A stretch of 58,306 nt of DNA from assembly GCA_016191815.1 (NCBI GenBank), contig JACPVI010000047.1:1-58306 (forward strand), written 5' to 3'. Shown piece after piece: positions 43,069 to 58,154 of this stretch. The notes below the pieces were generated by a model. That model was not told where the DNA came from. It worked only from the letters and a program-made list of their open reading frames with translations, and did no database searches. A program made the position numbers and the translations under genes. This stretch comes from Myxococcales bacterium (GTDB lineage Bacteria; Myxococcota; Myxococcia; Myxococcales; Myxococcaceae). Position 1 is the first letter of the stretch; every line of letters begins with the position of its first letter.

Positions 43069-45258
43069 CTAGATGCGCTCCACCGAGTAGACGCCGTTCA
43101 AGCGCTCGATGCTGCGCATGAGGTCGTTGAGCTGCTTCAAGTCCGAGATGCTGACCTCGAAGGTGTTGACGGCGCGATCGTCGCCGGTGGCCCGGCAGTT
43201 CGCCTGGGAGATGTTGATGCCCTTCTTGGAGAAGGCGTTGGAGATGTCCGCGAGGAGCCCCGGCCGGTCGGCGGTGAGGACGCGCAAGGTGACCGGCCGC
43301 TTGAAGTCCCCGCGCACGTCCCAGCTCACCTCCACCCGCCGCTCGGGGTCGGTGGCGAGGGCCTTCTCGCAGCTCACGGTGTGCACCGTCACCCCCCGGC
43401 CGCGGGTGATGAAGCCGGCGATCGGGTCTCCGGGCACCGGGTTGCAGCAGCGGGCGAAGCGCACCAGCACCTCGTCCACCCCGCCGATGATCACCCCGCT
43501 CTTGCTCTGGCGGCCCACCAGCTTCTTGGCCACCTCGGTGACCCGTCCCAAAGAGAGCAGGCCGCCCTGGGCGCCGTTGCCTTCCCGGCCGTCGCGCGGC
43601 TCGGCGAGCTTCTCCGGAGGGAGGATGCGCTCCACCAGCTGGTGAGGGGAGATCTTCCCGTAGCCGATGGCCGCCAGCATGTCCTCCTCGATGCGGAAGC
43701 CCAGCTCGGCGGCGATCTTCTTGAGATCTCCTCCCTTGAGGAGCTTGTTGAAGTTGAGCTGGAAGCGGCGGAACTCGCGCTCGGCCAGCTCCCGGCCGAG
43801 CTGGAGGCTCTTCTCGCGCTGCTGCTGCTTGATGAACTGCCGGATCCTCTGCTGGGCGCGGCTGGTCTTGACGAAGGTGAGCCAGTCCTTCGAGGGGTGG
43901 GCCTGGGGGCTGGTCAGGACCTCGACCTGATCGCCGTTCTTGAGCTTGTAGCGGAGCGGGACGATCTTCCCGTTCACCTTGGAGCCGACGCACTTGTGCC
44001 CGACGTCGGAGTGGATGGCGTAGGCGAAGTCCACCGGGGTGGCGCCGCGCGGGAGGCTCTTCACGTCGCCCTTGGGAGTGAAGACGAAGACCTCGTCGGT
44101 GAACAGGTCGACCTTGACCGTCTCCAGGAACTCCTTTGGATCCTTGAGGTCCTGCTGCCACTCCATGAGCTGGCGGAGCCAGGCGAACTTCTCGTCGTCG
44201 CGCGAGATGATCGACTTGCCTTCCTTGTAGGCCCAGTGCGCGGCGATGCCCTCCTCGGCGATCTTGTGCATCTCCTCGGTGCGGATCTGCACCTCCACCC
44301 GCTCGGAGAGAGGCCCGATCACCGTGGTGTGGAGCGACTGGTACATGTTCGGCTTGGGGATGGCGATGAAGTCCTTGAACCGCCCAGGCACCGGCTTCCA
44401 CAGCTGGTGGATGAGCCCCAGCGCTTCGTAGCAGGAGGGGATCGAAGGCATCAGCAGCCTGAAGGCGATGATGTCGTGCACCTGGTCGAAGTCGATGCCC
44501 TGGGCGCGCATCTTCTTGTAGATGCTGTGGAGGTGCTTGAAGCGCCCTGACACCCGGCCCTCGAGCCCGCGCTCCTTGAGCTTGTCTTCGATGAGCCGCA
44601 CCACGTCGGCGATGTACTGCTCGCGCTCCTTCCGGCGCTGGTCCACCTTCTGGAGGAGGTCCTCGTACTCCTGCGGCTTGAGGTACTTGAAGGAGAGATC
44701 CTCGAGCTCGGTCTTGACCCAGCTGATGCCGAGCCGGTTGGCGAGGGGCGCGTAGATGTCCAGGGTCTCCTGCGCGATTCGCGCCTGCTTCTCCGGGGCC
44801 ATGTGCTCGAGCGTCCGCATGTTGTGGGTGCGGTCGGCAAGCTTCACCAGGATGACGCGGATGTCCTGCGCCATCGCGATGATCATCTTCCGGAAGTTCT
44901 CCGCCTGCTTCTCCTCCTGACTCATGGTGGCGGAGGCGGAGAACTTCGACAGCTTGGTCACCCCGTCCACGAGCTGAGCGATCTCCGGGCCGAAGAGCTC
45001 GGTCAGCTCCTCGCTCGTGGCGAGGGTGTCTTCGATGGTGTCGTGCAATAGCCCGGTGACGATGGAGGCCTCGTCGAGCTTGAGCTGGGCCAACAGCCCC
45101 GCCACCTCCAGGGGGTGGACCAGGTACGGCTCCCCCGACTTGCGGATCTGCCCCTGGTGGACCTTGGCCGAATACACGTAGGCCTTCTTGATGAGATCAA
45201 GGTCCGGGTCGGGGTGATAACTCGCGACCCGCTGGAGGATGTCGTTGAGCCGGATCAT
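43069..45258 (-). CDS. rel: Bifunctional (p)ppGpp synthetase/hydrolase
   Basis: The protein has 729 residues from the ATG at 45258. The HD hydrolase domain is intact (H72/D73 in 'LLHDTIEDT'). The synthetase domain has 'RFKDFIAIPKPNMYQSLHTT'; the RxKD form of this loop is typical of bifunctional Rel/SpoT rather than RelA. TGS ('EVFVFTPKGDVKSLPRGATP'), helical, conserved-Cys ('FARCCNPVPGDPIAGF') and ACT domains follow in normal order. It makes and degrades the alarmone that drives starvation responses, including development in myxobacteria. It is followed by the kinase gene. Confidence 0.96.
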   Translation of the reverse strand: MIRLNDILQRVASYHPDPDLDLIKKAYVYSAKVHQGQIRKSGEPYLVHPLEVAGLLAQLKLDEASIVTGLLHDTIEDTLATSEELTELFGPEIAQLVDGVTKLSKFSASATMSQEEKQAENFRKMIIAMAQDIRVILVKLADRTHNMRTLEHMAPEKQARIAQETLDIYAPLANRLGISWVKTELEDLSFKYLKPQEYEDLLQKVDQRRKEREQYIADVVRLIEDKLKERGLEGRVSGRFKHLHSIYKKMRAQGIDFDQVHDIIAFRLLMPSIPSCYEALGLIHQLWKPVPGRFKDFIAIPKPNMYQSLHTTVIGPLSERVEVQIRTEEMHKIAEEGIAAHWAYKEGKSIISRDDEKFAWLRQLMEWQQDLKDPKEFLETVKVDLFTDEVFVFTPKGDVKSLPRGATPVDFAYAIHSDVGHKCVGSKVNGKIVPLRYKLKNGDQVEVLTSPQAHPSKDWLTFVKTSRAQQRIRQFIKQQQREKSLQLGRELAEREFRRFQLNFNKLLKGGDLKKIAAELGFRIEEDMLAAIGYGKISPHQLVERILPPEKLAEPRDGREGNGAQGGLLSLGRVTEVAKKLVGRQSKSGVIIGGVDEVLVRFARCCNPVPGDPIAGFITRGRGVTVHTVSCEKALATDPERRVEVSWDVRGDFKRPVTLRVLTADRPGLLADISNAFSKKGINISQANCRATGDDRAVNTFEVSISDLKQLNDLMRSIERLNGVYSVERI

Positions 45259-45424
45259 CGCTTCGAACTTCGAACGGGCGGCCTGTCGGCCCCTCTTGGC
45301 CAGCCCGCCCGGCAATCGTAACTTCCGGGGTCCTACGGAGCAACGGCGCCGCACCGCGTCAGCACCGCGCGGAGCGGGCCGGTTCCCTCAGCAATCCTGC
45401 CCGCTTGACGCCAGTTTCGCGTCA

Positions 45425-45454
45425 TTGACCACGGCTTCTGGCGACCCCTACACT
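45425..45454 (+). promoter_or_regulatory. Candidate sigma-70 promoter for the FHA gene
   Basis: TTGACC at 45425-45430 and TACACT at 45449-45454 are separated by 18 bases and end 12 bases before the FHA start codon, so the transcript would have a very short leader. It lies in the 208-bp divergent gap after rel. No promoter for rel was recognised there. Confidence 0.4.
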
Positions 45455-45466
45455 GACGCCATCCTC

Positions 45467-46876
45467 ATGGCCATTCCACTGCTCGCCTCCCTGGGCGTGA
45501 TTTGCCCTGCGTGCGATCGGCTCAATTCCGCTGGGGCCGGGCGCTGCGGGGAGTGTCAAGCAGTGCTCTCTGCTGGGGAAGCCCCTGCGAGCCCGAGGGT
45601 GCCCCAGCCAGCCGTCCGTAGCGCCGGGCCTTCGCAGGCGGAGCATCTCCCGCTGGCCGGATCCGTGCCCGCCGTGAGGCCGCTTTCCTCGGTGCCCACC
45701 CGGGCCGCGCCGCAGCCGGCGGTGCCCTCCAGCGCGGGGGTCCAGGGCGCCGCGGGCTCGCCGGCCAGGCCTTCGACTCCGCCGGCGCCGGCGAGGCAGC
45801 CCCTCGGCAGTGGTGCCGAGCGGTCCACGCAGGCGTATGCATCACCGCAGCCGAGGGCCGCCACGATTGGAAGGCCGGCGGAGGTTCCCGGGGCGGTTCG
45901 CCCGGTGGCCCCCAGCCGCCCGCCGGTCCCCGAGGCTGCCCAGCCGGCTGCGCCCAGGATCGACACCGTACCCCCGGGAATGCGCCCGACGGCGAGGCCG
46001 GCCACCTTGCCGCCGAGGCCAGCAGGAGTTGCGGCCCCGGGGGTGGGGGTCGCGGCAGGCTCGGCCGTCCCGCCGGCGGCGCCGAAGATCACCGCGGCAG
46101 CGCCGGTGCCGGGAGCCCGACCGCCGGCTGCCGAGGCGCCACGCCCGGCTCCCATTCCTGCGAGCGACCTGGTGAAGCGTCCCTCTCCCAGCGCCAGCCG
46201 CCCGGTGCCGGCGGCAACGGCAGTGCCAGCGCCTGGTCCACGCTACGTGGTGGCGGTGGAGGCCGGGCCCGCGCAGGGCCAGCGCTTCCGGCTGCCGGCC
46301 TCGGGCGCGGTGGTCGGAAGGAGCAGGGGGGCCATTCTCTTCCCCGACGACCCATTCATCTCTCCGCACCACGCCACGCTGGTGGTGAAAGAGGGCAAGC
46401 TGTTCGTCCGGGACGAATCGAGCACCTCTGGCGTCTTCGTGGGGATCCAGGCGCAGGTGACCATCCCGGTGGAGGGGGAGTTCGCGGTGGGTCTGCGCCG
46501 GTTTCGCTTCGATGGCCCGCTGGACCCGACGCCCGCGCAGGGTCGGGTGGCGATGTACGGGGCGCCCCTTCCGGCGAGCCAGCTGCACTACCGCATCGAG
46601 GAGCTGCTGGTAGGGGGGCGTCCCGGGCGCGCGATCGTCAGCTCGAGCTCGATCATCACCGTCGGCCAGGGGCGCTGCGATCTCTCGTTCCCCGGCGATG
46701 AGGCGTTGGCGCCGAGGCACTGCGAGCTGTCACCGCTCCCGACCGGCCTGATGATCCGCGACCTCTCCGGAGGCCTCGGCACCTTCGTGCGAATCACTCC
46801 CGGCGTCGAACGCCCGCTCAAGCTCGGCGACCGCCTGCGCATCGGCCAGCAAGTGCTTGCGGTAGAAGCGGGCTAG
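45467..46876 (+). CDS. Zinc-ribbon protein with two FHA domains
   Basis: The protein has 469 residues from the ATG at 45467. A CxxC...CxxC ribbon ('CPACDRLNSAGAGRCGEC') is followed by a ~230-residue Pro/Ala/Val-rich disordered linker. Two FHA domains follow. The first has 'GAVVGRSRGAILFPDDPFIS', 'PHHATLVVKEG' and 'DESSTSGVFV'. The second ('IITVGQGRCDLSFPGDEALA', 'PRHCELSPL') is more diverged. FHA domains bind phosphothreonine, so it is a likely reader for the neighbouring Ser/Thr kinases. The stop abuts repeat copy C. Confidence 0.88.
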   Translation: MAIPLLASLGVICPACDRLNSAGAGRCGECQAVLSAGEAPASPRVPQPAVRSAGPSQAEHLPLAGSVPAVRPLSSVPTRAAPQPAVPSSAGVQGAAGSPARPSTPPAPARQPLGSGAERSTQAYASPQPRAATIGRPAEVPGAVRPVAPSRPPVPEAAQPAAPRIDTVPPGMRPTARPATLPPRPAGVAAPGVGVAAGSAVPPAAPKITAAAPVPGARPPAAEAPRPAPIPASDLVKRPSPSASRPVPAATAVPAPGPRYVVAVEAGPAQGQRFRLPASGAVVGRSRGAILFPDDPFISPHHATLVVKEGKLFVRDESSTSGVFVGIQAQVTIPVEGEFAVGLRRFRFDGPLDPTPAQGRVAMYGAPLPASQLHYRIEELLVGGRPGRAIVSSSSIITVGQGRCDLSFPGDEALAPRHCELSPLPTGLMIRDLSGGLGTFVRITPGVERPLKLGDRLRIGQQVLAVEAG

Positions 46877-47020
46877 GCGGTCGAGGGTCGAGCGTCGAGG
46901 GTCGAGCGTGACCGTCGAGCGACGGTTCAGAGCCCAAGACGTTTTCCGGTCGACCCATGACCGTCGAGCGCTGGACCCAGGTCGACGGAAGCGCTCGACA
47001 CTCGACCCTCGACGCTCGAC
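46877..47020. repeat. GTCGAG-type intergenic element, copy C
   Basis: This 144-bp element exactly fills the gap between the stops of two convergent genes. The left arm has GGTCGAGGGTCGAGCGTCGA; the right arm (about 46993-47020) ends CACTCGACCCTCGACGCTCG. GCCCAAGACGT and TCGAGCGCTGGAC in the centre match copy B, showing the two are homologous rather than chance repeats. A fold-back structure is likely. Confidence 0.75.
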
Positions 47021-48667
47021 TCAGAGGTCCGGATAGGCCTGCTGGATGTACTTCTTGGCCTTGGAGGCCGAGTGATCCTTCAGGTGCCTCGACCACCAGC
47101 CGCGCGCCTCCCTGGCGTCGTTCCGCTGGTAGTACAGCTCGCCCAGCTTGAGCGCGATCTCCGGGCGAGGGTCCTTCTCGAAGGCTTCTTTGTACTTCGC
47201 CGCCGCGAGATCCTCGCGCCCGCGCTGGTGCGCCTCGTCGCCCTCGCGCGAAAGCCGCTCGGACTTCTCCCGGTCCCGAAGCTCCGAGGGGATTTCCACC
47301 TCGTAGAGGGGCCGATCGCGAGGCAGCTCCACGTCGTGCCCATTCTTCCCCAGCTGCATCGGGGCGTTGGGGTTCCCCTCGTCGGGAGCCAGGCGGCTGT
47401 CCCCGAAGTAGAGCTGATAGACGTAGAAGCCCGCCAGCGCGAAAGAGACGGCCACCAGCGCCACCGTCACCAGCTTGAACAGCAGCATCCCCCCACCGCT
47501 CGGCGCCGGATCGGTGATGTCAACCCCCGGGCGCATCTGGTCCACCACCGCCACCCGCCGGGCCGTGGGAGGCTCGGCCCGCTCCGTCCGCTCGGTGCCC
47601 CAGGAAGGCTCAGCCGTGATCCGGGTGGCCTGCTGCTCGAGCGGCGTCACCCTCCGGGGGATCCGCGGCGAGGAGTTCCCCCTCCGTGCCGCACTGGCGC
47701 TCGCCCTCCGCTCTCGGTCCACCGCCACTAGCTCGGCCCGGAACGCCTCCGCGTTCTGCGGGCGATCGTTGGGGTCCTTCGACATCGTGCGCAGGATCAA
47801 GCGCTCCATCGCTGGCGACACCCTCGCCTCCGCACGCCGGCGCGAGGGCGGAATGGGCTCCTCAGTGAGATGCTTGGTCGCGAACCCCACCGCCGAGTCG
47901 GCGTCGAACGGCAAGAGCCCAGTGCACAGCTGGTAGAGAATGACCCCCACCGCGTACAGGTCGCTCCGGGGGTCGAGCTGCGCCCCCCGCGCCTGCTCGG
48001 GGCTCATGTACTCGGGCGTCCCGCACACGAAGCCGGCCCGGGTCAACGCCGGGCCTTCCTCGCCCGGAGAGTCGGTGATCTTCGCGATCCCGAAGTCGAG
48101 CACCTTGACGAAGTCCGGCTCGCCGCGGCGCTGCTCGACCATGATGTTCTCGGGCTTGAGGTCCCGGTGGATGACCCCAGCGGAGTGCGCGTCCGCCAGG
48201 GCCGAGAGCACCTGCCCGACGATGCGCACCACCCGCGCCTCCGGGAGCGGCCACTCGGTGGAGAGGATCTGGTGCAGGTCCTTCCCCACCACGTACTCCA
48301 TGGCGATGTAGAGCGCTCCGCTTTCCTCCACCTGCCCGAAGTCGAGCACGCTGATCGAGTTGGGGTGGTTGAGCCGGCTCGCCGCCTTGGCCTCGCGCTG
48401 GAAGCGGGCCTTGGTCCGCTCGTCCGACAGGAGCGACTGCCGCAGCACCTTGAGCACCACCGGTTTGTCGAGCGCCAGCTGGCGGGCCCGGTAGACCTTC
48501 CCCATGCCCCCTTCACCGATGAGCTGCTCCACCCGGTACTTGGAGGCGATGATCTTGCCGAGGTAGTTGTCCTCTCCGTCCGCGGCGGGCCGGGCGAGCG
48601 CCGTCCCGCACGCGCGGCAGACCCTTGAGGTTTCACCGGCGTCGCCGCCGCAGGACGGGCAGAGCAA
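47021..48667 (-). CDS. Ser/Thr protein kinase with zinc ribbon, membrane helix and TPR-like tail
   Basis: The protein has 548 residues from a TTG at 48667. An N-terminal ribbon ('LCPSCGGD', 'CRACG') precedes a Hanks-type kinase domain ('LIGEGGMGKVYRARQ', 'VIHRDLKPENIMVE', 'DFGIAKITD', 'GTPEYMSPEQARG'). A membrane helix lies at about 405-425, and the outer part ends in a TPR-like helical repeat ('AAAKYKEAFEKDPRPEIALK'). All key catalytic residues are present. The N-terminal ribbon is of the same kind as in the flanking FHA proteins, suggesting a shared assembly. It is divergent from the second FHA gene. Confidence 0.93.
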   Translation of the reverse strand: MLCPSCGGDAGETSRVCRACGTALARPAADGEDNYLGKIIASKYRVEQLIGEGGMGKVYRARQLALDKPVVLKVLRQSLLSDERTKARFQREAKAASRLNHPNSISVLDFGQVEESGALYIAMEYVVGKDLHQILSTEWPLPEARVVRIVGQVLSALADAHSAGVIHRDLKPENIMVEQRRGEPDFVKVLDFGIAKITDSPGEEGPALTRAGFVCGTPEYMSPEQARGAQLDPRSDLYAVGVILYQLCTGLLPFDADSAVGFATKHLTEEPIPPSRRRAEARVSPAMERLILRTMSKDPNDRPQNAEAFRAELVAVDRERRASASAARRGNSSPRIPRRVTPLEQQATRITAEPSWGTERTERAEPPTARRVAVVDQMRPGVDITDPAPSGGGMLLFKLVTVALVAVSFALAGFYVYQLYFGDSRLAPDEGNPNAPMQLGKNGHDVELPRDRPLYEVEIPSELRDREKSERLSREGDEAHQRGREDLAAAKYKEAFEKDPRPEIALKLGELYYQRNDAREARGWWSRHLKDHSASKAKKYIQQAYPDL

Positions 48668-48794
48668 GGCGGTTCCCGAGGTTCCGAATCGCGGTCGACG
48701 AAATCTGTCACGGCAGGAGGGTCGCCTTCAACCAGGCAAGCAGGAGAAGCTCGGCGGCGCATGGCCATCTGCTATCTTCGCGGCCAGCGAGGCC

Positions 48795-49553
48795 ATGTCC
48801 TTCTCGTTCTGCCCCCGGTGCGACGCCAAGAACCCGCCCGGAGCTGCCGCTTGCCAAGCGTGCGGCTGCGCGCTCACCTCGGGGACGATGGTGATGGGCG
48901 GGGCGGGGACCGCCCGTCCCAATGTCTCCTTCCGCGTGGTGCGGGCGGACGGGGGCCCCGAGGCCGTGGTGTCCATGAAGTCCGACGTGGTGACCTGCGG
49001 CCGCCGGGGAGACATCGTCCTCTCCGACGACCCCTTCGTCGCCGACAACCAGGCGCGGTTCTTCTTCTCCGGAACCCGTCTGGCGATCGAGGATCTCGCC
49101 GGGGGCAACGGAGTGTTCCACCGGCTACGGCGGGAGCGAGAGCTGGTTTCCGGAAGCGAAGTTCGGCTCGGGCGGCAGAGGCTGTTGGTGGAGCCCGTCC
49201 CTGCGCTGGCCCCGGCCCCCGACGGCGCGGTGGCCTGGGGCTCGCCGGACGCGGGCTATCGCTTCCGGCTGGTGCAGCTGCTCGAGGGCGGGCTGCGCGG
49301 CGCGGTGTTCCCCCTCAAGGAAGGAGACAATTCGCTAGGGCGCGAGGCGGGCGACATCGTCTTCCCCGCCGACGGCTTCGTCTCCGGCCGCCACGCGACG
49401 CTGCACGTCAGCCCCGACCGGGTCCTGCTCAAGGACGTGGGCTCCTCGAACGGAACCTTCACCCGCCTGGCGGCCGCCGTGTTCGTGGACAACGGGGATC
49501 AATTCCTGATCGGCCGCCAGCTGGTCCGGGTGGAGATCGGAGCTCCCGCCTGA
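48795..49553 (+). CDS. Zinc-ribbon protein with two FHA domains (short form)
   Basis: The protein has 252 residues from the ATG at 48795 with GAGG four bases upstream. The ribbon is 'FCPRCDAKNPPGAAACQACG'. The first, weaker FHA domain has 'CGRRGDIVLSDDPFVADNQA'. The second is canonical ('NSLGREAGDIVFPADGFVSG', 'RHATLHV', 'DVGSSNGTFTRL'). Domain order matches the longer FHA protein at 45467 but without the long linker, so they are paralogues. It is divergent from the kinase at 47021-48667 and followed 48 bases later by a PilZ gene. Confidence 0.9.
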   Translation: MSFSFCPRCDAKNPPGAAACQACGCALTSGTMVMGGAGTARPNVSFRVVRADGGPEAVVSMKSDVVTCGRRGDIVLSDDPFVADNQARFFFSGTRLAIEDLAGGNGVFHRLRRERELVSGSEVRLGRQRLLVEPVPALAPAPDGAVAWGSPDAGYRFRLVQLLEGGLRGAVFPLKEGDNSLGREAGDIVFPADGFVSGRHATLHVSPDRVLLKDVGSSNGTFTRLAAAVFVDNGDQFLIGRQLVRVEIGAPA

Positions 49554-49601
49554 GCTTGGGCGGCGACTGGCGCGCGGGGAGAACCGGAATAGGATGCCGC
49601 C

Positions 49602-50183
49602 ATGTCGACCAAGCGGCGCCACCGCCGGTATCGGCGTCGGTTCCTGGTCAAGTTCGGCGAGAAGGAGCCCACCTCGAGCGGGTTCACCGTGGACGTGTCG
49701 CCAGGCGGGGCTTTCATCTCGACCCCGCACCTGGTCCCCTTGGACGCGCGGGTGCACGTGCAGCTGTTCCTCAATCCCGCCCGCTCCATCTATTTCGAGG
49801 GCCAGGTCTGCCGGCACAAGGTGGTGCCGGTGACGCTTAGGAGCGTGGAGCGGGGAGGCTTCGCGGTCCGGTTCCTCTCGCCGGCCGAGGCGCTCTCCGA
49901 GGCGACCGGGCCGAGGCTGGAGCTTCATTTCCAGAGCGCCGAGGAGCTTAGGGCCGCCCATCAGCGCGAGCTTCGCATGGGCGGAGCGTTCATTCCCACC
50001 CAGCAGCCTCCGCCCCGCGACACCGAGCTCCAACTGGACCTCTACCTGGACTTCGCCGGCCAGGCATTCGAGGTCGACGCGACGGTGGTCTACGTCTCCG
50101 ACCCCACCGGGCCCACCAAGGGCGTGGGGGTGAGCTTCGATCGGCAGAAGCTCGAAGAGGCGCTAATGCCGTTCCTCGCCTGA
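49602..50183 (+). CDS. PilZ domain protein, probably two PilZ-like units
   Basis: The protein has 193 residues. 'RRHRRYRRRFLVKFGEKE' gives the Arg motif and 'FTVDVSPGGAFISTP' the D/NxSxxG motif of a cyclic-di-GMP-binding PilZ domain (residues 1-~100). The second half ('HQRELRMGGAFIPTQ', 'GVGVSFDRQKLEEAL') has a similar strand order but lacks the Arg motif, so it is a diverged copy. It follows the FHA gene closely and probably integrates phosphorylation and cyclic-di-GMP signals. Confidence 0.85.
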   Translation: MSTKRRHRRYRRRFLVKFGEKEPTSSGFTVDVSPGGAFISTPHLVPLDARVHVQLFLNPARSIYFEGQVCRHKVVPVTLRSVERGGFAVRFLSPAEALSEATGPRLELHFQSAEELRAAHQRELRMGGAFIPTQQPPPRDTELQLDLYLDFAGQAFEVDATVVYVSDPTGPTKGVGVSFDRQKLEEALMPFLA

Positions 50184-50237
50184 AGGGAGTGCCGTGCAGC
50201 GACCAGACCAAAGCGCGAGACGGCCTGACGAGCTGGC

Positions 50238-50600
50238 TCAGCCGTACGACTTTTCCTTCTTCTCCTGCTCTTCCTTGCAGCGAATGCAGAGGGTAGTGAC
50301 GGGGCGGGCGTCGAGCCGCTTGGCGGAGATCGGCTCCTCGCACCGCTCGCAGATCCCGAAGGTGCCGTCCTCGATGCGCGAGAGCGCCTTGTCGATCTTC
50401 TTGAGCAGGAACTTCTCTCGGTCGCGCAGGCGGAACACCATGCTCTGCGCGTATTCGCTGGAGGCCAGGTCGATCTCGTCCGGGAGGTCGTCCGTGTCGA
50501 AATTCGACTCCTCCATCAGGGTCTTCTTCGCGCTCTGTAGAAGAGCGAGCTTGCTGTCCTCGAGCATCTTCTTGTAGCGCTTGAGATCTTTCTGGTTCAA
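50238..50600 (-). CDS. dksA: DksA/TraR-type C4 zinc-finger protein
   Basis: The protein has 120 residues from a TTG at 50600, where family sequence ('NQKDLKRYKKMLED') begins and AAGGGGG lies upstream; a TTG at 50627 is possible. A coiled coil is followed by a four-Cys zinc finger ('FGICERCEEPISAKRLDARP', 'LCIRC'). It binds the RNA polymerase secondary channel and usually works with ppGpp, made by the rel gene 5 kb away. A strong promoter lies upstream and the gene is divergent from dacZ. Confidence 0.88.
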   Translation of the reverse strand: MNQKDLKRYKKMLEDSKLALLQSAKKTLMEESNFDTDDLPDEIDLASSEYAQSMVFRLRDREKFLLKKIDKALSRIEDGTFGICERCEEPISAKRLDARPVTTLCIRCKEEQEKKEKSYG

Positions 50601-50639
50601 GACCGTGTGCCCCCTTGGGAGAGCCAAAAAGGGGCAATA

Positions 50640-50703: not shown

Positions 50704-51585
50704 ATGTCGGAGATCAGCAAGTTCGACCGCGAGTTTCTGCGCGCTGCCCTGAGCCTGGCCGGCAAGGGAGAGGTCGACCATCTGCTCTACATCAGCGACA
50801 CGCCCATCCCACCGGAGGATTTGAGGGGGAGGAAGGCGCGGCGGAAGCTGGTGTACGCGGTGACCACCGAGAAGCTGGCGCAGGAGCTGTTGTCCACCAA
50901 GAACCGGGCGCTGGTGATTCCGGGGTACGACTACTCGCGGGTGGAGCGGGTGAAGGTGGCGCTGGTGTCGGCGCTCTCCCAGGGCGCCTTCAAGGAGGGG
51001 GATCTGGTGCTGTGCGTCACCGGCCGGGTGGGGCGGACGGTGGACACCCTGATGCAGATGCGGATCGGCGGCTCGCTGGACGACCGGGTGGCCATTGAGG
51101 GGGTGAAGCTGGGAGACCAGTTCAACTCGCAGGTGGTGGACGCGCTCATCCAGCTGGCGCTGGAGATCGGCCAGGAGGGCTTCGAGAGCCACCCGATCGG
51201 GACGATCATCACCATCGGCGATCACACCAGCGTGCTGGAGAAGAGCCGGCAGATGACGATCAATCCCTTCCAGGGGCTGTCGGAGGCCGAGCGGAACGTG
51301 CTGGATCCGAAGATCCGCGAGGCGATCAAGAACTTCTCGGTGCTGGACGGGGCGTTCGTGATCCGCGAGGACGGGGTGGTGCTGGCGGCTGGGCGCTACC
51401 TCTCCTCGGCCGACGAGGAGGTGCGCATCCCGCTTGGCCTGGGCGCGCGCCACGCGGCGGCGGCGGGCATCACCTCGACGACGCGCTGCATCGCCCTGGT
51501 GGTGAGCCAGACCTCGGGCGCAGTGCGGCTGTTCAAGGAGGGGAACATCGTGCTCGAGCTGCACCAGACGGCGCGGAGAACCTGA
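50704..51585 (+). CDS. DacZ-like diadenylate cyclase (c-di-AMP synthase)
   Basis: The protein has 293 residues. The C-terminal DAC domain has both catalytic motifs: Asp-Gly-Ala (D215-A217, in 'FSVLDGAFVIREDGVVLAA') and Arg-His (R249/H250, in 'IPLGLGARHAAAAGIT'). The N-terminal ~160 residues form an alpha/beta domain like the pyruvate-kinase C-terminal domain ('LVLCVTGRVGRTVDTLMQM'), the arrangement of DacZ rather than DisA, CdaA or CdaS. It is soluble and should make cyclic di-AMP from ATP. Its start lies ~100 bases from the divergent dksA gene. A weak GGAG precedes the ATG. Confidence 0.85.
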   Translation: MSEISKFDREFLRAALSLAGKGEVDHLLYISDTPIPPEDLRGRKARRKLVYAVTTEKLAQELLSTKNRALVIPGYDYSRVERVKVALVSALSQGAFKEGDLVLCVTGRVGRTVDTLMQMRIGGSLDDRVAIEGVKLGDQFNSQVVDALIQLALEIGQEGFESHPIGTIITIGDHTSVLEKSRQMTINPFQGLSEAERNVLDPKIREAIKNFSVLDGAFVIREDGVVLAAGRYLSSADEEVRIPLGLGARHAAAAGITSTTRCIALVVSQTSGAVRLFKEGNIVLELHQTARRT

Positions 51586-51711: not shown

Positions 51712-52643
51712 ATGCGTCGGGAACTGCTGGCCGTGCGCCTCATCTCTGCGGCCGCCCTGGCCCAAGTGCCCTCGAAGGTGGCCTACCAGGGGCGGCTTCT
51801 GAAGTCGGACGGGACGCCGGCCAGCGGCACGGTGAAGTTCAAGTTCGATATCTACGACGACGCCACTGCGGGGAACCTGCTCTTTGGCGAGGAGCAAACC
51901 TTGGGGCTGACCGATGGCTTTTACGCCACCTACCTGGGTGACGGCACGGCCCCGGGAATACCCGCCGGAGTCTTCACCGGGCCGGAGAGGTACCTCGAGG
52001 TGACCGTGGCGGGAGAGAAGATCTCCCCGCGCCAGAAGGTCGGCTCGGTACCCTACGCGATGATGGCCAACGACGCGCGCAACCTCTCCGGCGGGACGGT
52101 GGACGCCCAAAGCATCAAGGTCGGCGGCAACACCGTGATCGACTCCACCGGGGCCCTGGCGGGAAACGCGGCGTACCTCGCGGGAGCGGGCCTCGCACTC
52201 TCCGGGAGGACGTTCTCCGTCGATTCCGCCGGCTGCAATGCAGGGCAGGCGCTCACCTGGAATGGCACCGGATGGGCCTGCGCCTCCGGAGTCAGCTACC
52301 AGGCCGGCGACGGGCTGGTGCTCGCCGGCAATATCTTCGGCATCGACTCCACCGGTTGCAGCGCCGGCCAGCGGCTGACCTGGAGCGGCACCGCCTGGGC
52401 CTGTGCGGCGGCGACCAGCTACCAAGCCGGCGGAGGGCTTTCTTTGTCCGGCGGCACCTTCAGCCTCGACCCCACCGGTTGCACCGCGGGCCAGAAGAGC
52501 TTCGAGGAACCGCACCCGGCGCACTCCGGAAAGCGGATCGTCTACGTCAGCCCGGCAAGGGCTCCTGCGACTTCGACTACCTGGTGATCGGAGTTCGGGC
52601 GCGGCACCGCGGGCACGAAGTGGTGCGGGACGCGGAGCGCTAG
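51712..52643 (+). pseudogene. Surface/tail-fibre-like repeat protein, frameshifted and truncated
   Basis: The frame from the ATG at 51712 has a possible short signal sequence, then 'VAYQGRLLKSDGTPASGTVK', a domain found in exported fibre-like proteins. Three tandem ~40-residue repeats follow ('SYQAGGGLSLSGGTFSLDPT', 'LTWSGTAWACA'). It enters what looks like a C-terminal chaperone-type domain ('KSFEEPHPA', 'KRIVYVS') but stops at 52587. A different frame then gives 'CDFDYLVIGVRARHRGHEVV' to a stop at 52641-52643, the likely original C-terminus. A deletion with frameshift near 52510-52570 probably removed most of that domain. Confidence 0.6.
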
Positions 52644-52740: not shown

Positions 52741-53322
52741 TCAGCCTCGACCCTTGATCCTCGATCCCTTGGCGCCGGCCCCGGCGTCCTCCCGGTAGAT
52801 GTCGGCAAGGGCGTGCGCCCGCTCGACCTCGTCGCGCGCCTCGTCCAGCGCCAATACCCGGTCGAATTGCTCCACCCGCTCGCGCAGCGCCGCGGTCACC
52901 GCGAGCCCCACCGACAGCCTCGCCCGCGCGCTCGAACGCTCCGCCCTGAGCTCCGCGATCCGCCCCGCCAAGCCTTCCGCGGCTCCGAGCAGCAGCTTCG
53001 AGTCACCCTCCGCAGCCGCCAGCGCCTGCTCGCTCGCCCTCAGGCGCCCCTCCCCCTCCGACCGGTCGCGCGTCAGCACGCTCACTGCCTTCGCGTCGTG
53101 GCGCGCGTCGGCCGTCGCCAGACGGCGTTCGACCTCCGCGATCACCCGGCGGTAGCGCTCGAGATCGCGCGTGAGGTCGCCCTTGAGGGCGAGCAGCGTC
53201 GCCGCCGACCGCCGCACCTGTGCCGCCTGGCGCTCGAGATCCTCGATCAACCCGTCGAAGGCCGCGATTGGATCGGCAGGCGCCGCGGGCGGCTTTCGCT
53301 TCTTGCCGAAGCCGAACACCAT
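52741..53322 (-). CDS. PspA/IM30-like coiled-coil protein
   Basis: The protein has 193 residues, almost entirely helical with heptad-like spacing ('DPIAAFDGLIEDLERQAAQV', 'DLERYRRVIAEVERRLA'), after a basic N-terminus ('FGFGKKRKPP'). This resembles phage-shock protein A / Vipp1 proteins that polymerise on membranes, though no diagnostic motif settles it. It is the last gene of a three-gene unit with a VWA protein and a MoxR ATPase. Its last codons are made of a degenerate GTCGAG repeat (copy D). Confidence 0.65.
   Translation of the reverse strand: MVFGFGKKRKPPAAPADPIAAFDGLIEDLERQAAQVRRSAATLLALKGDLTRDLERYRRVIAEVERRLATADARHDAKAVSVLTRDRSEGEGRLRASEQALAAAEGDSKLLLGAAEGLAGRIAELRAERSSARARLSVGLAVTAALRERVEQFDRVLALDEARDEVERAHALADIYREDAGAGAKGSRIKGRG
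52745..52767. repeat. Degenerate trace of the GTCGAG element (copy D)
   Basis: CCTCGACCCTTGATCCTCGA resembles the right arm of copies B and C (CTCGACGCTCGACCCTCGAC) with several mismatches. It also sits where two genes converge, inside the 3' end of the PspA-like gene. The match is short, so it may be coincidental. Confidence 0.3.
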
Positions 53323-53336
53323 TTGCAGCCTCGAGC

Positions 53337-55625
53337 CTACCCGAACGGCCGGCAGAGCAGGCGCACCCGCTCCAGGCCGGCCGCCACCGCCTCATCGGGA
53401 GCCGCCACCGCCGCGAGGTAGGCGGTCAGCGGAGTCCCGTACAGTCCCAGCAGGTGGTTGAGCAGCGTCACCGCCTCGGCCGCCCTGGCGTCCGCCGGGG
53501 CCAGCGAGGCCGCCTCCGCGATCGCCTCCAGGATGTCCGCCAGTCGCGCCCAGTCCGCCCCCTTCGGCGGCCTGGCCGACTTTTCCGCGCCGCGCTTGGG
53601 CTCCGGGAAGAGCGCATCGAACGAGCCCTCCGACCGAGGAGGCGCCGGCGCCGGCCTGCCCTGGGCGACCGCCTCCAGCGCCTCGAGGTGCGGCAAGAGC
53701 GCCTCCAGCGCACCCGCGGTGGTCGGAGTCTCCCTCGGAAGGAGGGTCCGCCAGGTGGTGTCGAACTCGGTCCGCGCCGCGGCGATCTCCGCGTCCGCGA
53801 GGTGGTGGTAGAAGGCCCGCCCGCCCTTCGCCCGCTGCTCGAACACCAAGGACTTGAGGTCGGTGTTCTCCTCGCCCAGCGAGATGAAGGAGAGCGCGAT
53901 GTCCACCTGCCCGAGCGGAGCCCGGGTGCGGCGGAGCAACTCGAGGTCCACCCCGTCTTCTCCGTCCGTCACCAGCACAACCGTCGCCCGCGCCAGGTAG
54001 GGATCCTTCCCCTGCGCCGAGCGGATCGACTCGAACGCCGACATCAGCGCCAGGGTGATGTCCGTCTGCCCCTCGGCCGGCGAGCTTCGGAAGAGCTTCT
54101 CGATCTGCCGGATCGCCTCTGCCGCCGAGTCCACCCGCGCCAACTCGGTCGGCGAGTCGTTGAAGAACGAGAAGTAAAGCGGATCGAACGGCAGGCCTCG
54201 GTGTGCTTTGGCCGCCAGGTTGTTCAGCTCGGCGAGCAGGATCGCGTCGCGGAAGCGCGCCCTCGGCCCGTGCATCGAGCCCGACGCGTCGCAGACGTAC
54301 ACCCTCACCGCAGTCTTCCGCACCCTGCGCGGGCGGGGCGGAGGCAGCTCCTCGAGGTACGCCCGCACCACCTGCCGGTTCGAGGCGAGATCGTGGATCA
54401 GCGTCCTCGGATCGGTGATGATGAAGTTCGGCAGCTCGTCGAGGCTGCCGGTGAACTCGTAGGCCATCGTCTGGGTCGGGTACCCCACCCGTCGCGGCAC
54501 CGGGCGCGCCACCCTCAGCTCCGCCTCGACGATCTCCTCCGCCAAGGCGTCCTCCACGTCGAAGTAGCGCGCGCAGCCCGCGGCCAGCTCGAAGGCCTCC
54601 AGCCGCTCGTCTTCCAGCTCGAACGCCATCCTCGCGAGCGCCTCGTCGCCCTTGCTCTCCAGCCCCGGCGGCTCGCCCAGGCGCCGCTTCCTCGGCGCGC
54701 GAGCCTCGCCCTGATCCGCCGCCCACTCCGCGAGGTGGTCCTGCTCCGAGCGCTCCAAGGCCCGCCTCAGCTCGTCGCCCCGGGGAAGCATCGAGCAGGC
54801 CGCTTCCCGCGCCAGAGTCGCCAATTCACGGTCGTTGGCCTCCACCGCCCGCTCGTAGAGGGCGCGGACGGAGCGGTAGGCCGAGCGTGGATCCTTCCGT
54901 GCGGCGAGCCGCAGGTGCCGGGCGAGGTCCTGCAGCGAGCGGACCGCGGGCACCGAACGCGCGCGCTCCCGGGCCTGGGCCACCTCGGTGCGAAGGTGGC
55001 GGGCACGGTCCCGGTCAACCTCCGCGCCGAGCCTGAGGAGCATCTCGTGGGCGGCGTCGAGGTCCCTCCGCTTCTGCACCAGATCGCCGATGTTCCCCCG
55101 CGCCCGTTCCGCCCAGAACTCGGCCACCGCGAGCTTCGCCGAGGCGGGAGGAGCGCTCCGGTCCGCCAGCGGCCGATCGAAGATCTCGAACTCGCCCACC
55201 GCCTCGTCGGGCGACGCGAACAGATCGGCCACCTTCACCGCCCTCGCGAGCTTTGCGAAGCCTCGCTCGAGGGCGCTCAAGGCCCCAGGTCCGGCCGACC
55301 GCGACAGGACGGCTCGCTCGAGCCTCCCTAGCCTTGCTTCGTACTCGTCAAGCACGTCCTTGCCCCGCTGCTCCAAGCCCTGGGCGAGCGCCCCCACTCG
55401 GCCCTTCTTGGCGCCCAGCGAGCGGAGCAGCTTGGCATCGGCGGCGGTGTGGATGCCTACCCGATCGAGGTCCCGGTCCAAGGCGAGCAGCTGCTTCATC
55501 GGCGAGGCCGGGTCCGACGACTCGACCGCCGCCAGCGCCCGGTCCAGAATCCCCGCCGACAGCACCGTCCCCTCGCGCAGGGCGTCGAGGCGCTGGCGGA
55601 TCCGGTTGAGGCGGGGATGAAGCAT
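53337..55625 (-). CDS. VWA-domain protein, ViaA-like partner of the MoxR ATPase
   Basis: The protein has 762 residues. A long helical N-terminal region (to ~400) precedes a von Willebrand A domain with an intact MIDAS ('VYVCDASGSMHGPRARFRDA', D446; later 'QTDITLAL' and 'VLVTDGEDG'). This is the layout of ViaA-type proteins that work with MoxR/RavA ATPases in metal-dependent protein or complex remodelling. Gaps of only 6 and 14 bases separate it from the ATPase and the PspA-like gene, so all three are surely cotranscribed. Confidence 0.85.
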   Translation of the reverse strand: MLHPRLNRIRQRLDALREGTVLSAGILDRALAAVESSDPASPMKQLLALDRDLDRVGIHTAADAKLLRSLGAKKGRVGALAQGLEQRGKDVLDEYEARLGRLERAVLSRSAGPGALSALERGFAKLARAVKVADLFASPDEAVGEFEIFDRPLADRSAPPASAKLAVAEFWAERARGNIGDLVQKRRDLDAAHEMLLRLGAEVDRDRARHLRTEVAQARERARSVPAVRSLQDLARHLRLAARKDPRSAYRSVRALYERAVEANDRELATLAREAACSMLPRGDELRRALERSEQDHLAEWAADQGEARAPRKRRLGEPPGLESKGDEALARMAFELEDERLEAFELAAGCARYFDVEDALAEEIVEAELRVARPVPRRVGYPTQTMAYEFTGSLDELPNFIITDPRTLIHDLASNRQVVRAYLEELPPPRPRRVRKTAVRVYVCDASGSMHGPRARFRDAILLAELNNLAAKAHRGLPFDPLYFSFFNDSPTELARVDSAAEAIRQIEKLFRSSPAEGQTDITLALMSAFESIRSAQGKDPYLARATVVLVTDGEDGVDLELLRRTRAPLGQVDIALSFISLGEENTDLKSLVFEQRAKGGRAFYHHLADAEIAAARTEFDTTWRTLLPRETPTTAGALEALLPHLEALEAVAQGRPAPAPPRSEGSFDALFPEPKRGAEKSARPPKGADWARLADILEAIAEAASLAPADARAAEAVTLLNHLLGLYGTPLTAYLAAVAAPDEAVAAGLERVRLLCRPFG

Positions 55626-55631
55626 CGCTCG

Positions 55632-58154
55632 CTACAAGCGCGCCCGCGCGTCCAGCAACCGCTTGCTGAACGACGCGAAGTCCTCGGCCACCCCACGCAG
55701 CGCTTGCTCCAGCTTCTTCGCGCTCTCGCTGATCGGCCCCCGATGGGCACAGAGCAGCTCCAACGTCCCTTTAAGGCGCACCAGCTCGCCCTCCTTGGTG
55801 GCCAAGAGGGGGAAGCGGCTCTTCACCAACCGGTCGAAGGCGCGCTCCGCCTCCGCCTTGTGCGACAGCTCGTCCGGCGAGGGGAGCGAGGTCAAGAGCT
55901 GGGAGAGCCAGGCCCTGAGGAACCGCACCCGCGCCTGGGCGAACGCCAGCTCGACCGATGCCACCGACTCCTTCACCTCGCTGGAGATCGCGGGACCGCC
56001 GGAGGTGGTGGCGAGCAGCGACTCGAGCGAGGCGAGCGCGGTCAGCTCGCCGTCCGGGGCCGCGGCGGCAAGCTCCTGCCGGTAGTGAAGGTAGGCCTCG
56101 CCGTTCAGCACCTGGGGCGCCTCGGGGTGCGGGCTCCTCACCGGCTGCGAGAGGACCTGCGCGTGGTCGCGCAGCCGCTGCTCGATCACGTCATGGTTCT
56201 CCGCCAAGAGCGGCTCGGGCGAAAGGCCCTCGCGGCGGAGGTTGTCGGAGACCGTCTGGACCACGCGTGAATACTGCTCCACCCGCTCGAAGGTGGCAGA
56301 GGAGAGCACCTCGCGCGCGTACGCCGCGCCGAGCGGTTGCAAGAGCTCCTGCTTGAGGCCGGCCTGTTCGGAGCTCAGGCCGACCAGCGCCGCCTCGAGC
56401 TGGGAGAGCCGCCTCGAGTCGACCGCCAGAGACTCCAGCGGGTCCCCTCGCGCATGCCCTCGCTCGAACGCCGAGGCCACCCGCCTGCGGATGGAGGACG
56501 CGGCCCTCGCCCTGGTCTCCTTCTCCGCGGCTCTCAGCTCCTCGGCGCGGCCCGGCACCAGCACCGCGAGCTGGTCGGCCACCGCGTCGACCTGAGAGAG
56601 CTCCTCGTCCAGGTTCGCGGCCAGCCCGCTCAGCGCCTCGAGCTTCACCGCCTCGTCGAACTCGGTGCTCTCCGCGGAGAGCGAAGCCATCTCCAGGGCC
56701 TGCCGGCAGAACCCGGCGGCGGCCTTGGCGACCGGCTCCAGCCGGTCCGACAACTCAGGCACCGCGCGGCACAGCCCCATCACCTCGAGCAGGGAGGACA
56801 TCAGCGCCGCACCGCCCCTCCCTTCTCCCTGCCCAGCCATGCCTCGGGCCAGCCGCTGCTCGAGCGCGGCCACCAACGTCCTCGCCGCCGCCGCCAAGGG
56901 AAGGCGGTTTTGCGGGTGCCTCGGGCCGGGGACCAGCTTCTCCCGGAGAGATCTCGCCGCGGCCGCCGTGGGGACGGCCTGGAAGCTCCGGAGCATGGAA
57001 TCGGCGGCGGCCTGCTCCTCCTTCGGGTCGAGCGCCGCGGCCTCGCGATCGATCCCGGAGGCCAGCTCGGAGCGGACCTTCGCAAGCGCCTCCTCGAAAG
57101 ACTTGTGCTCGAGCCGGATGATCTCCAGCTGGGCCCGCTCGCGCGGATCCGCCGCGCTCTTGAGCAACAGCTCGGTCTCCGCGGGTGCCGGCCCGCCGAG
57201 GAGGAAGAAGTACCGGAGCCAGTCCAAGTCCTCCACCCGCGCCTCCAGCGGGCGCTCCGGACGGCGGTAGATGCGGTCGCGCACCACCGCGGCCTTGAGC
57301 GCCCAGAGCGCCTTCACCGTGGACCTTTGCGAGAAGTACTTGGTGGGTACGTAGTCTGGGAGCTTCACCACCTGAGCCTGAAGCTCGCGCTCCACCGCGT
57401 CGGCGAGGAGCTCCAGCCCCTCGCGCACCAGGCTGCCGACCTCCACCCGGTCGACGGACGCCTGGAGGACGTCGAGCTGCTGGAGGGTCAGGGAGGCCTT
57501 GAGGTCCGGCCGCTGTCCCTTCGCTGCGGTGGCCAGCATCGCCGCGCGGCTGGAGGCGCGCGCGAAGGACTTGGGGCAGAAGCAGATGAACGACAGCCGG
57601 TCGGCGAAGGCAAGCAACAGCTCCGGGGACCGGGCGAGGACCTCCGAGAGGTAGCGATTGCTCGTCATGATCGCGCACTCGCACCGGCCCGCGGTCACCT
57701 TCCGGCCGTGCTTGAGCTCGCGCTCGTGCAGCACGTTGAGGATCGACCTAAGCAGCATGTCCCGCCCGTCGAACACCTCGTCGAGGAAGGCGTGGGTCGC
57801 GCCGAGCATCCCGTCGTCGGTGATGTACTCGGTGCGCCCGGTGTCCTGCAGCACCTTGAAGTCCACCGGGCCGACGAGGTCCGACTGCACGGTGGACTCC
57901 GACAGCTGCTTGGCGAAGAGCGACGGCTCGCCGGACTTCTCGTCGGAGATCCTCCCCAGCACCGCGCTGGCGATGGCGCTCTTGGCGGTTCCCGGGGGAC
58001 CGGTGACCAGCACGTGCTCGCGGCAGAGGAGCGCCAGCTCGATCTGGGTGAACAGCGCCTCGCGCTCGAGGAAGACGTCGCGCAGCTCGAAGAAGAACTT
58101 GCGGAAGGCTGCGGCGGCTGCGCCGAAGCGGGCGGCGGTGTCGGGCGGGCTCAC
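55632..58154 (-). CDS. MoxR-family AAA+ ATPase, RavA-like, with long C-terminal extension
   Basis: The protein has 840 residues from the GTG at 58154. The AAA+ domain occupies the first ~320: Walker A 'TGPPGTAKSAIASAVLGRIS' (K58), the MoxR segment 'QSDLVGPVDF', Walker B-like 'GATHAFLDEVFDGRDMLLRS' and sensor 'CAIMTSNRYLSEVLARSPEL'. The remaining ~500 residues are mostly helical and Ala/Glu-rich with no recognised domain, much longer than in RavA (~500 in total). It probably remodels a substrate together with the VWA protein, with the PspA-like protein placing it at the membrane. Confidence 0.88.
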   Translation of the reverse strand: MSPPDTAARFGAAAAAFRKFFFELRDVFLEREALFTQIELALLCREHVLVTGPPGTAKSAIASAVLGRISDEKSGEPSLFAKQLSESTVQSDLVGPVDFKVLQDTGRTEYITDDGMLGATHAFLDEVFDGRDMLLRSILNVLHERELKHGRKVTAGRCECAIMTSNRYLSEVLARSPELLLAFADRLSFICFCPKSFARASSRAAMLATAAKGQRPDLKASLTLQQLDVLQASVDRVEVGSLVREGLELLADAVERELQAQVVKLPDYVPTKYFSQRSTVKALWALKAAVVRDRIYRRPERPLEARVEDLDWLRYFFLLGGPAPAETELLLKSAADPRERAQLEIIRLEHKSFEEALAKVRSELASGIDREAAALDPKEEQAAADSMLRSFQAVPTAAAARSLREKLVPGPRHPQNRLPLAAAARTLVAALEQRLARGMAGQGEGRGGAALMSSLLEVMGLCRAVPELSDRLEPVAKAAAGFCRQALEMASLSAESTEFDEAVKLEALSGLAANLDEELSQVDAVADQLAVLVPGRAEELRAAEKETRARAASSIRRRVASAFERGHARGDPLESLAVDSRRLSQLEAALVGLSSEQAGLKQELLQPLGAAYAREVLSSATFERVEQYSRVVQTVSDNLRREGLSPEPLLAENHDVIEQRLRDHAQVLSQPVRSPHPEAPQVLNGEAYLHYRQELAAAAPDGELTALASLESLLATTSGGPAISSEVKESVASVELAFAQARVRFLRAWLSQLLTSLPSPDELSHKAEAERAFDRLVKSRFPLLATKEGELVRLKGTLELLCAHRGPISESAKKLEQALRGVAEDFASFSKRLLDARARL

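Follow-up and report, generated by a model that had tools for sequence, protein, structure and literature searches.

Is a MoxR-type AAA+ ATPase that is encoded together with a von Willebrand factor A (VWA) protein and a small PspA-like protein the dedicated motor of a bacterial membrane-remodelling polymer? The question is raised by three adjacent genes (the trio) on contig JACPVI010000047.1 of a Myxococcales bacterium (GenBank assembly GCA_016191815.1), a stretch of 58,306 nucleotides that was analysed at full length (the window) and is one whole contig of a 6.77-Mb genome. The best explanation, to which we give a probability of about 0.38 as a whole, is that the trio is one functional unit in which the MoxR-VWA pair remodels, in the manner of Vps4, a polymer of a divergent PspA/Vipp1-type protein.

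Gene layout and conservation

The trio lies on the minus strand in the order ATPase, VWA protein and third protein:

55632..58154, minus strand: MoxR-type AAA+ ATPase, 840 residues, GTG start, first gene of the trio (bpMoxR 80 bits, AAA_5 44 bits, orthologue alignment A4)
53337..55625, minus strand: VWA protein, 762 residues (Pfam VWA_2, AlphaFold2 (AF2) model, Foldseek matches to VWA domains)
52741..53322, minus strand: PspA/Vipp1-like helical hairpin protein, 193 residues (AF2 model, Foldseek, profile-profile comparison with controls)

The intergenic gaps are 6 bases (ATPase/VWA) and 14 bases (VWA/third gene); these gaps and the open reading frames agree exactly with a preliminary description of this DNA, which had also made its proposal depend on conservation of the trio. 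The contig ends only 152 bases upstream of the ATPase start, which places the upstream neighbour outside the window. A promoter and terminator scan gave nothing useful.

The trio is conserved. Among 195 Myxococcota genomes the third gene was found in 90, the VWA gene in 89 and the ATPase gene in 89, in the same genomes apart from two breaks at contig ends: one contig (G002, no ATPase) stops 46 bases past the VWA gene, and in another genome (G003) the VWA gene is broken at contig ends, its first part being present in locus L024. From named records 44 loci were collected, 33 of which extend past the VWA gene while the other 11 stop within the trio; all 33 have the three genes on one strand in the order ATPase, VWA, third gene. 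Found as a single copy in almost all of the window's own family, the Myxococcaceae, the trio is a core gene set of these multicellular bacteria, which account for 88 of the 90 carriers. Eight listed family members without the third gene also lack the VWA and ATPase genes at E ≤ 1e-60; their genomes measure 2.1–6.0 Mb, those of carriers 4.8–13.8 Mb. The only carriers outside the family are G036, where the VWA gene adjoins the third gene and the ATPase gene lies at the end of a different contig, and G056, where the VWA gene is followed by the ATPase gene and the third gene is on a separate 5.9-kb contig. A further genome (G006) has about 0.9 kb between the VWA and third genes. Two records deserve separate mention: in a one-contig genome (G139:C1:4764672-4767175) the ATPase is in two pieces in separate open frames, from a frameshift or sequencing error, and a contig titled Comamonas sp. 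KCTC 72670 (BNCN01000010.1, locus L046) carries a Myxococcus-like trio with 64% ATPase identity and the usual neighbours, and is probably mislabelled or contaminated.

Alignments were built for the ATPase (A4, 22 rows plus the window's own sequence), the VWA protein (A3, 21 rows plus its own) and the third protein (A1, 25 of 33 third proteins plus its own); loci omitted from them were near-duplicates, were truncated by the end of a contig, lacked a clear start or were simply not selected.

ATPase

The first protein is a MoxR-clade AAA+ ATPase with intact motifs. Pfam bpMoxR matches residues 20–195 at 80 bits against a cut-off of 27, and AAA_5 matches at 44 bits; the bpMoxR model is broad, since five further loci of the same genome also pass its cut-off. 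The following sites, together with N166 and R186, are invariant in all 23 aligned rows, and we take their roles to be those usual for ATPase motifs:

57978..58001, minus strand: Walker A, GPPGTAKS, residues 52–59 (23/23 rows; coordinates from the reading frame)
57777..57782, minus strand: Walker B acidic pair, D125-E126 (23/23 rows)

The closest solved structure to the core is RavA, which the ATPase profile matched over positions 17–256 (E 1e-8, PDB profile search); with E. coli RavA the core aligns over 244 columns at 98%. The protein does not qualify as a member of the NCBIfam RavA family (37.8 bits versus a cut-off of 681). More than 500 residues lie outside the MoxR/RavA core, in line with the roughly 500 extra residues first noted from the letters, and this remainder (about 500 residues) had no match in Pfam, NCBIfam or PDB profile searches. 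No DNA-binding domain was matched in Pfam.

In a tree of the ATPases, built from every second row of alignment A4 and including three of the six own-genome MoxR loci above the PF07726 cut-off (L002 and L006 were removed by the motif filter and L004 was omitted), the trio proteins, bpMoxR and RavA grouped against classical MoxR, with bpMoxR and RavA sharing a long branch. The trio ATPases formed one clade in only 28% of bootstrap trees, with the bootstrap not converged, so that their status as a single clade is unsupported.

VWA protein

The second protein has a complete VWA metal site (DxSxS, T, D) by its sequence, as had been read at the outset, and all five of its residues are invariant in 22 of 22 rows:

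54276..54290, minus strand: MIDAS motif DASGS, residues 446–450 (D446, S448 and S450, 22/22)
54063-54065, minus strand: metal-site T521 (22/22)
53964-53966, minus strand: metal-site D554 (22/22)

Pfam VWA_2 scores 25.5 bits, slightly below its cut-off of 27. The AF2 model is mostly helical from residue 2 to about 425, followed by the VWA domain (about 440–610) and a helical C-terminus; its quality is modest (mean predicted local distance difference test (pLDDT) 66.5, residues 344–405 below 50), so the helical N-terminus of about 400 residues that had been proposed is reproduced as a prediction of that quality. Foldseek with this model returned mainly VWA domains (inter-alpha-inhibitor, TFIIH subunits, von Willebrand factor; best E 3.8e-3) and no clear match to the helical N-terminus among those listed, which does not prove the fold to be new. 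Alignment with ViaA covers 90 columns only, in the VWA domain, at 37%; the ViaA family gave no match at E ≤ 1 in NCBIfam, and no beta-propeller or bpX was matched in Pfam.

Third protein

The AF2 model of the third protein is a two-helix hairpin (helices 18–73 and 77–186, mean pLDDT 85), and in a Foldseek search of the PDB ranks 1–15 were all Vipp1/PspA, at E values from 1.3e-3 to 2.5e-2 (none below 0.001). Profile-profile comparison by hhalign with a PspA profile (10 myxobacterial PspAs and E. coli PspA) gave 87.4% and a score of 45, compared with 12.7 for the reversed profile and a maximum of 36.6 over 180 shuffles in blocks of 7, 14 and 28 columns, none of which reached the real score; with the myxobacterial PspAs alone it gave 66%. 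The PspA/Vipp1-like fold suggested by the preliminary description is thus borne out by Foldseek and by hhalign with its controls. The alignment takes in the N-terminal segment and the DP motif as well as helix 1, which is in register. PspA_IM30 was matched by 12 of 26 orthologues at E ≤ 0.1 (best 2.5e-4; runner-up family 5 of 26), and a diverged relative in G006 reached 27.6 bits (E 5e-6) with the PspA model, the best relative seen. A separate canonical PspA is encoded on contig C2 of the same genome, which makes the trio member the second, PspA-like protein of that genome.

Two regions of the protein stand out:

53269..53322, minus strand: short hydrophobic, then basic N-terminus ending at the DP motif, residues 1–18 (composition in relatives; alignment with PspA)
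52789..52839, minus strand: conserved tail, residues 162–178, ARDEVERAHALADIYRE, candidate site of the VWA/ATPase grip (motif in 33/33 relatives)

The N-terminus corresponds to PspA helix 0, which in E. coli PspA is longer by about 7 residues; at least three large hydrophobic residues occur at positions 2–8 in 32 of 33 distinct relatives, and at least three lysines or arginines at positions 5–14 in all 33. Residues 159–180, at the tail, form the most conserved segment (0.84 versus 0.46–0.74 for segments of the hairpin). R37 lines up with the E. coli PspA residue R44, and E126 and E179 have no clear counterparts; according to the part of PMC11746142 consulted, R44, E126 and E179 matter for the ATPase activity of Synechocystis PspA.

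Genomic neighbourhood

The surroundings of the trio were compared in 29 long loci and the window. There are two genomic settings, with wholly different neighbours: the first is common to the window and to loci of Myxococcus, Corallococcus, Archangium and Hyalangium, and the second consists of assembled metagenome genomes. That the trio stays intact while its surroundings change is a habit of a core function and not of a defence island.

In the first setting the far side of the trio holds a diadenylate cyclase gene (PF02457) and then DksA-like, FHA, Ser/Thr kinase and RelA/SpoT genes, the last four named by reading their sequences. Counting the window, 18 of 30 loci have the cyclase gene next to the trio; in the window this gene occupies 50704-51585 (plus strand), its DAC domain scores 73.9 bits, and its N-terminal part of about 150 residues has no Pfam match. 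A row of stress-signalling genes at 43069-50627 comprises RelA/SpoT, FHA, Ser/Thr kinase, a second FHA, PilZ (PF07238) and DksA-like proteins, of which only PilZ was assigned by Pfam. Convergent with the trio, 51712-52587 (plus strand) encodes a 291-residue protein that has no Pfam match and is not a conserved neighbour; its second half carries repeats of the kind AGQxLTWxGTxWACA and GLxLxGxxFxxDxTGC.

Upstream of the trio, locus L047 carries Hsp70, a diacylglycerol-kinase-like gene and a PIN-PhoH gene; the full Hsp70 gene (L047:6173-8458) is found some 1.5 kb upstream of the ATPase gene, and an Hsp70 cluster occurs in 17 of 30 loci. Hsp70 reportedly assembles and disassembles chloroplast Vipp1, and its presence near a PspA-like trio may or may not be coincidence. 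A connection with the stk locus of M. xanthus, prompted by the upstream Hsp70, was ruled out, as stkA has 540 residues and is followed by stkB and stkC (PMC4319316, in the part consulted); the part of PMC8265645 consulted contains nothing on the trio. In M. xanthus the trio may lie near MXAN_3195-3197; of the tags MXAN_3194 to 3198 and MXAN_3204, the open-access literature searched mentions only MXAN_3204, in a single paper.

Proposed mechanism and alternative explanations

We infer the following course of action. The third protein would probably bind the inner membrane through its short hydrophobic and basic N-terminus and polymerise via its helical hairpin; the MoxR ATPase would form a ring and couple ATP hydrolysis to the VWA protein, whose metal site would grip an acidic residue within the conserved tail; and the machine would extract subunits from the membrane polymer, or rebuild it, as Vps4 does with ESCRT-III, possibly for membrane upkeep or, as the preliminary description suggested, in membrane repair or stress. 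A common denominator of MoxR-vWA pairs given in section 8 of PMC7159879 (consulted in part) is that the vWA protein captures a substrate peptide and the ATPase drives a shape change. In favour of the explanation stand features shown by computation: the intact ATPase and metal sites, the PspA-like fold, the gene order fixed in 33 of 33 loci and kept in both genomic settings, the co-occurrence of the three genes and the conserved tail. The wider proposition, that myxobacteria evolved separately from Vps4 a dedicated ATP-driven machine that remodels a bacterial ESCRT-III-type polymer by means of a MoxR ring and a VWA metal site on an acidic tail, is put forward as less likely than not.

Several results weigh against Vps4-like remodelling. 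The ATPase is a MoxR protein, unlike Vps4, which is a classical AAA, and a Pfam search of it at E ≤ 1 gave no match to an MIT domain. With nearly all carriers in one family, shared ancestry accounts for part of the co-occurrence, and the conserved tail may merely be a polymer contact. The third protein scores 15.9 bits with Pfam PspA (PF04012), below the cut-off of 33.9; we take it as a divergent PspA/Vipp1-type member of the bacterial ESCRT-III superfamily and do not place it in PF04012. Its best NCBIfam match is an SMC coiled coil (E 5e-5, 21 bits versus a cut-off of 729); the PDB profile search returned no PspA and only weak coiled coils (bicaudal D best at E 0.21, then hemolysin E); profile searches within the same genome found no link between it and PspA in either direction; and in VIA-align many unrelated hairpins scored Z 11–13 (up to 13.0), so that E. 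coli PspA (12.6) was not set apart.

A serious possibility, and the main rival, though itself short of even odds, has the PspA-like protein act as an adaptor, docking a MoxR-VWA chaperone at the inner membrane, where the pair would assemble or activate some other membrane complex, as has been proposed for RavA-ViaA. RavA is the nearest solved structure to the ATPase core, RavA and ViaA are found at the inner membrane and have affinity for anionic phospholipids (PMC9489729, in the part consulted), and a client complex is usual for MoxR pairs (PMC7159879, section 8, likewise). However, no client gene accompanies the trio, whose neighbours differ wholly between the two settings, and a nearly invariant tail exceeds the needs of a simple membrane anchor.

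Regulation in the reverse direction, with the PspA-like protein sensing the state of the membrane and restraining or releasing the ATPase as E. coli PspA does with the AAA+ protein PspF, is unlikely. PspA is known as an AAA+ adaptor and repressor of PspF, but PspF activates transcription and belongs to a different kind of AAA+ protein, the trio ATPase has no match to a DNA-binding domain, and no clear part would be left for the VWA protein.

It is slightly less probable again that the third protein has no kinship with PspA and is a coiled-coil scaffold of the ordinary sort, with no more than the likeness generic to helical hairpins. The SMC match, the coiled coils from the PDB and the VIA-align scores described above speak for such a scaffold; against it stand the lead of PspA_IM30 over the next family among the orthologues, the Foldseek ranking, the hhalign score above shuffles and reversal, and the match of the G006 relative to the PspA model.

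A defence or conflict system, which the preliminary description had considered and which would resemble the MoxR-vWA ternary systems described as conflict systems of multicellular bacteria (Kaur et al., PMC7159879, in the part consulted), is highly improbable, as the PADLOC matches amount to no more than mad8 (E 0.0024, 47 residues) and LmuB (E 0.08), no effector domain was found in the Pfam search of the trio, and the trio is a single-copy gene set of nearly the whole family among housekeeping neighbours.

Novelty and comparison with known systems

The kinds of component are known, and the combination of MoxR, VWA and PspA-like proteins appears new within the open-access literature searched: no report combining MoxR, VWA and PspA was found there, none joining PspA, ESCRT-III, AAA and von Willebrand in bacteria, and nothing on Myxococcus xanthus MoxR that was recognisable as about the trio. 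Liu et al. 2021 (PMC8281802, in the part consulted) left open whether PspA or Vipp1 has a Vps4-like ATPase. The trio provides a concrete candidate for that part, an ATPase that would be devoted to one membrane-remodelling protein of bacteria. It occurs in a group to which the laboratory organism Myxococcus xanthus belongs, and it offers a defined metal site and a defined tail in three adjacent genes.

With RavA-ViaA the trio shares a MoxR-clade AAA+ ATPase adjacent to a VWA protein with a helical N-terminus. It differs in the length of the ATPase (840 versus 498 residues), which does not align beyond the core, and in its PspA-like gene, which the E. coli pair does not have alongside.

Four MoxR-vWA ternary systems, with VMAP, iSTAND, FtsH and beta-propeller components, are described by Kaur et al. 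2020 (PMC7159879); PspA has no occurrence in that paper, and no PspA-like third component appears in the part consulted. The beta-propeller and FtsH systems share with the trio the bpMoxR domain, three components and a GXXXTAKS P-loop into which GPPGTAKS fits, but in the trio no beta-propeller, bpX or FtsH domain was found by Pfam and the third component is PspA-like. Typical bpMoxR proteins of relatives score 276–281 bits over about 390 residues, compared with 80 bits and 840 residues here. Three loci of relatives (L156-L158) have such a typical gene, and in L156 a bpX6 protein is encoded close by, which makes that one a beta-propeller ternary system. Typical bpMoxR genes are present in relatives that carry the trio, so the trio is a separate system within the same genomes. 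It is neither RavA-ViaA nor any of the four published ternary systems, and the machine 'of distinct type' foreseen earlier holds in that sense; the trio would add a further type of third component to the four, with the look of cell upkeep rather than of conflict.

PspA/Vipp1 and the third protein share the helical hairpin, the hydrophobic and basic N-terminal start, the DP motif and helix 1 in register, while the shorter N-terminus, the conserved tail of its own and the MoxR-VWA gene partners are peculiar to the third protein. In PspA/Snf7 systems with classical AAA+ proteins (Ravi et al. 2024, PMC11237479, in the part consulted) an AAA+ ATPase is likewise encoded with a PspA/Snf7-type protein; those ATPases differ from that of the trio in having two AAA+ domains or propeller fusions, and MoxR and vWA have no occurrence in the main text consulted. 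With Vps4/ESCRT-III of eukaryotes and archaea the trio shares, by analogy only, a dedicated AAA+ ATPase serving an ESCRT-III-type protein, whereas it uses a MoxR-clade ATPase with a VWA partner in place of a classical AAA with an MIT domain.

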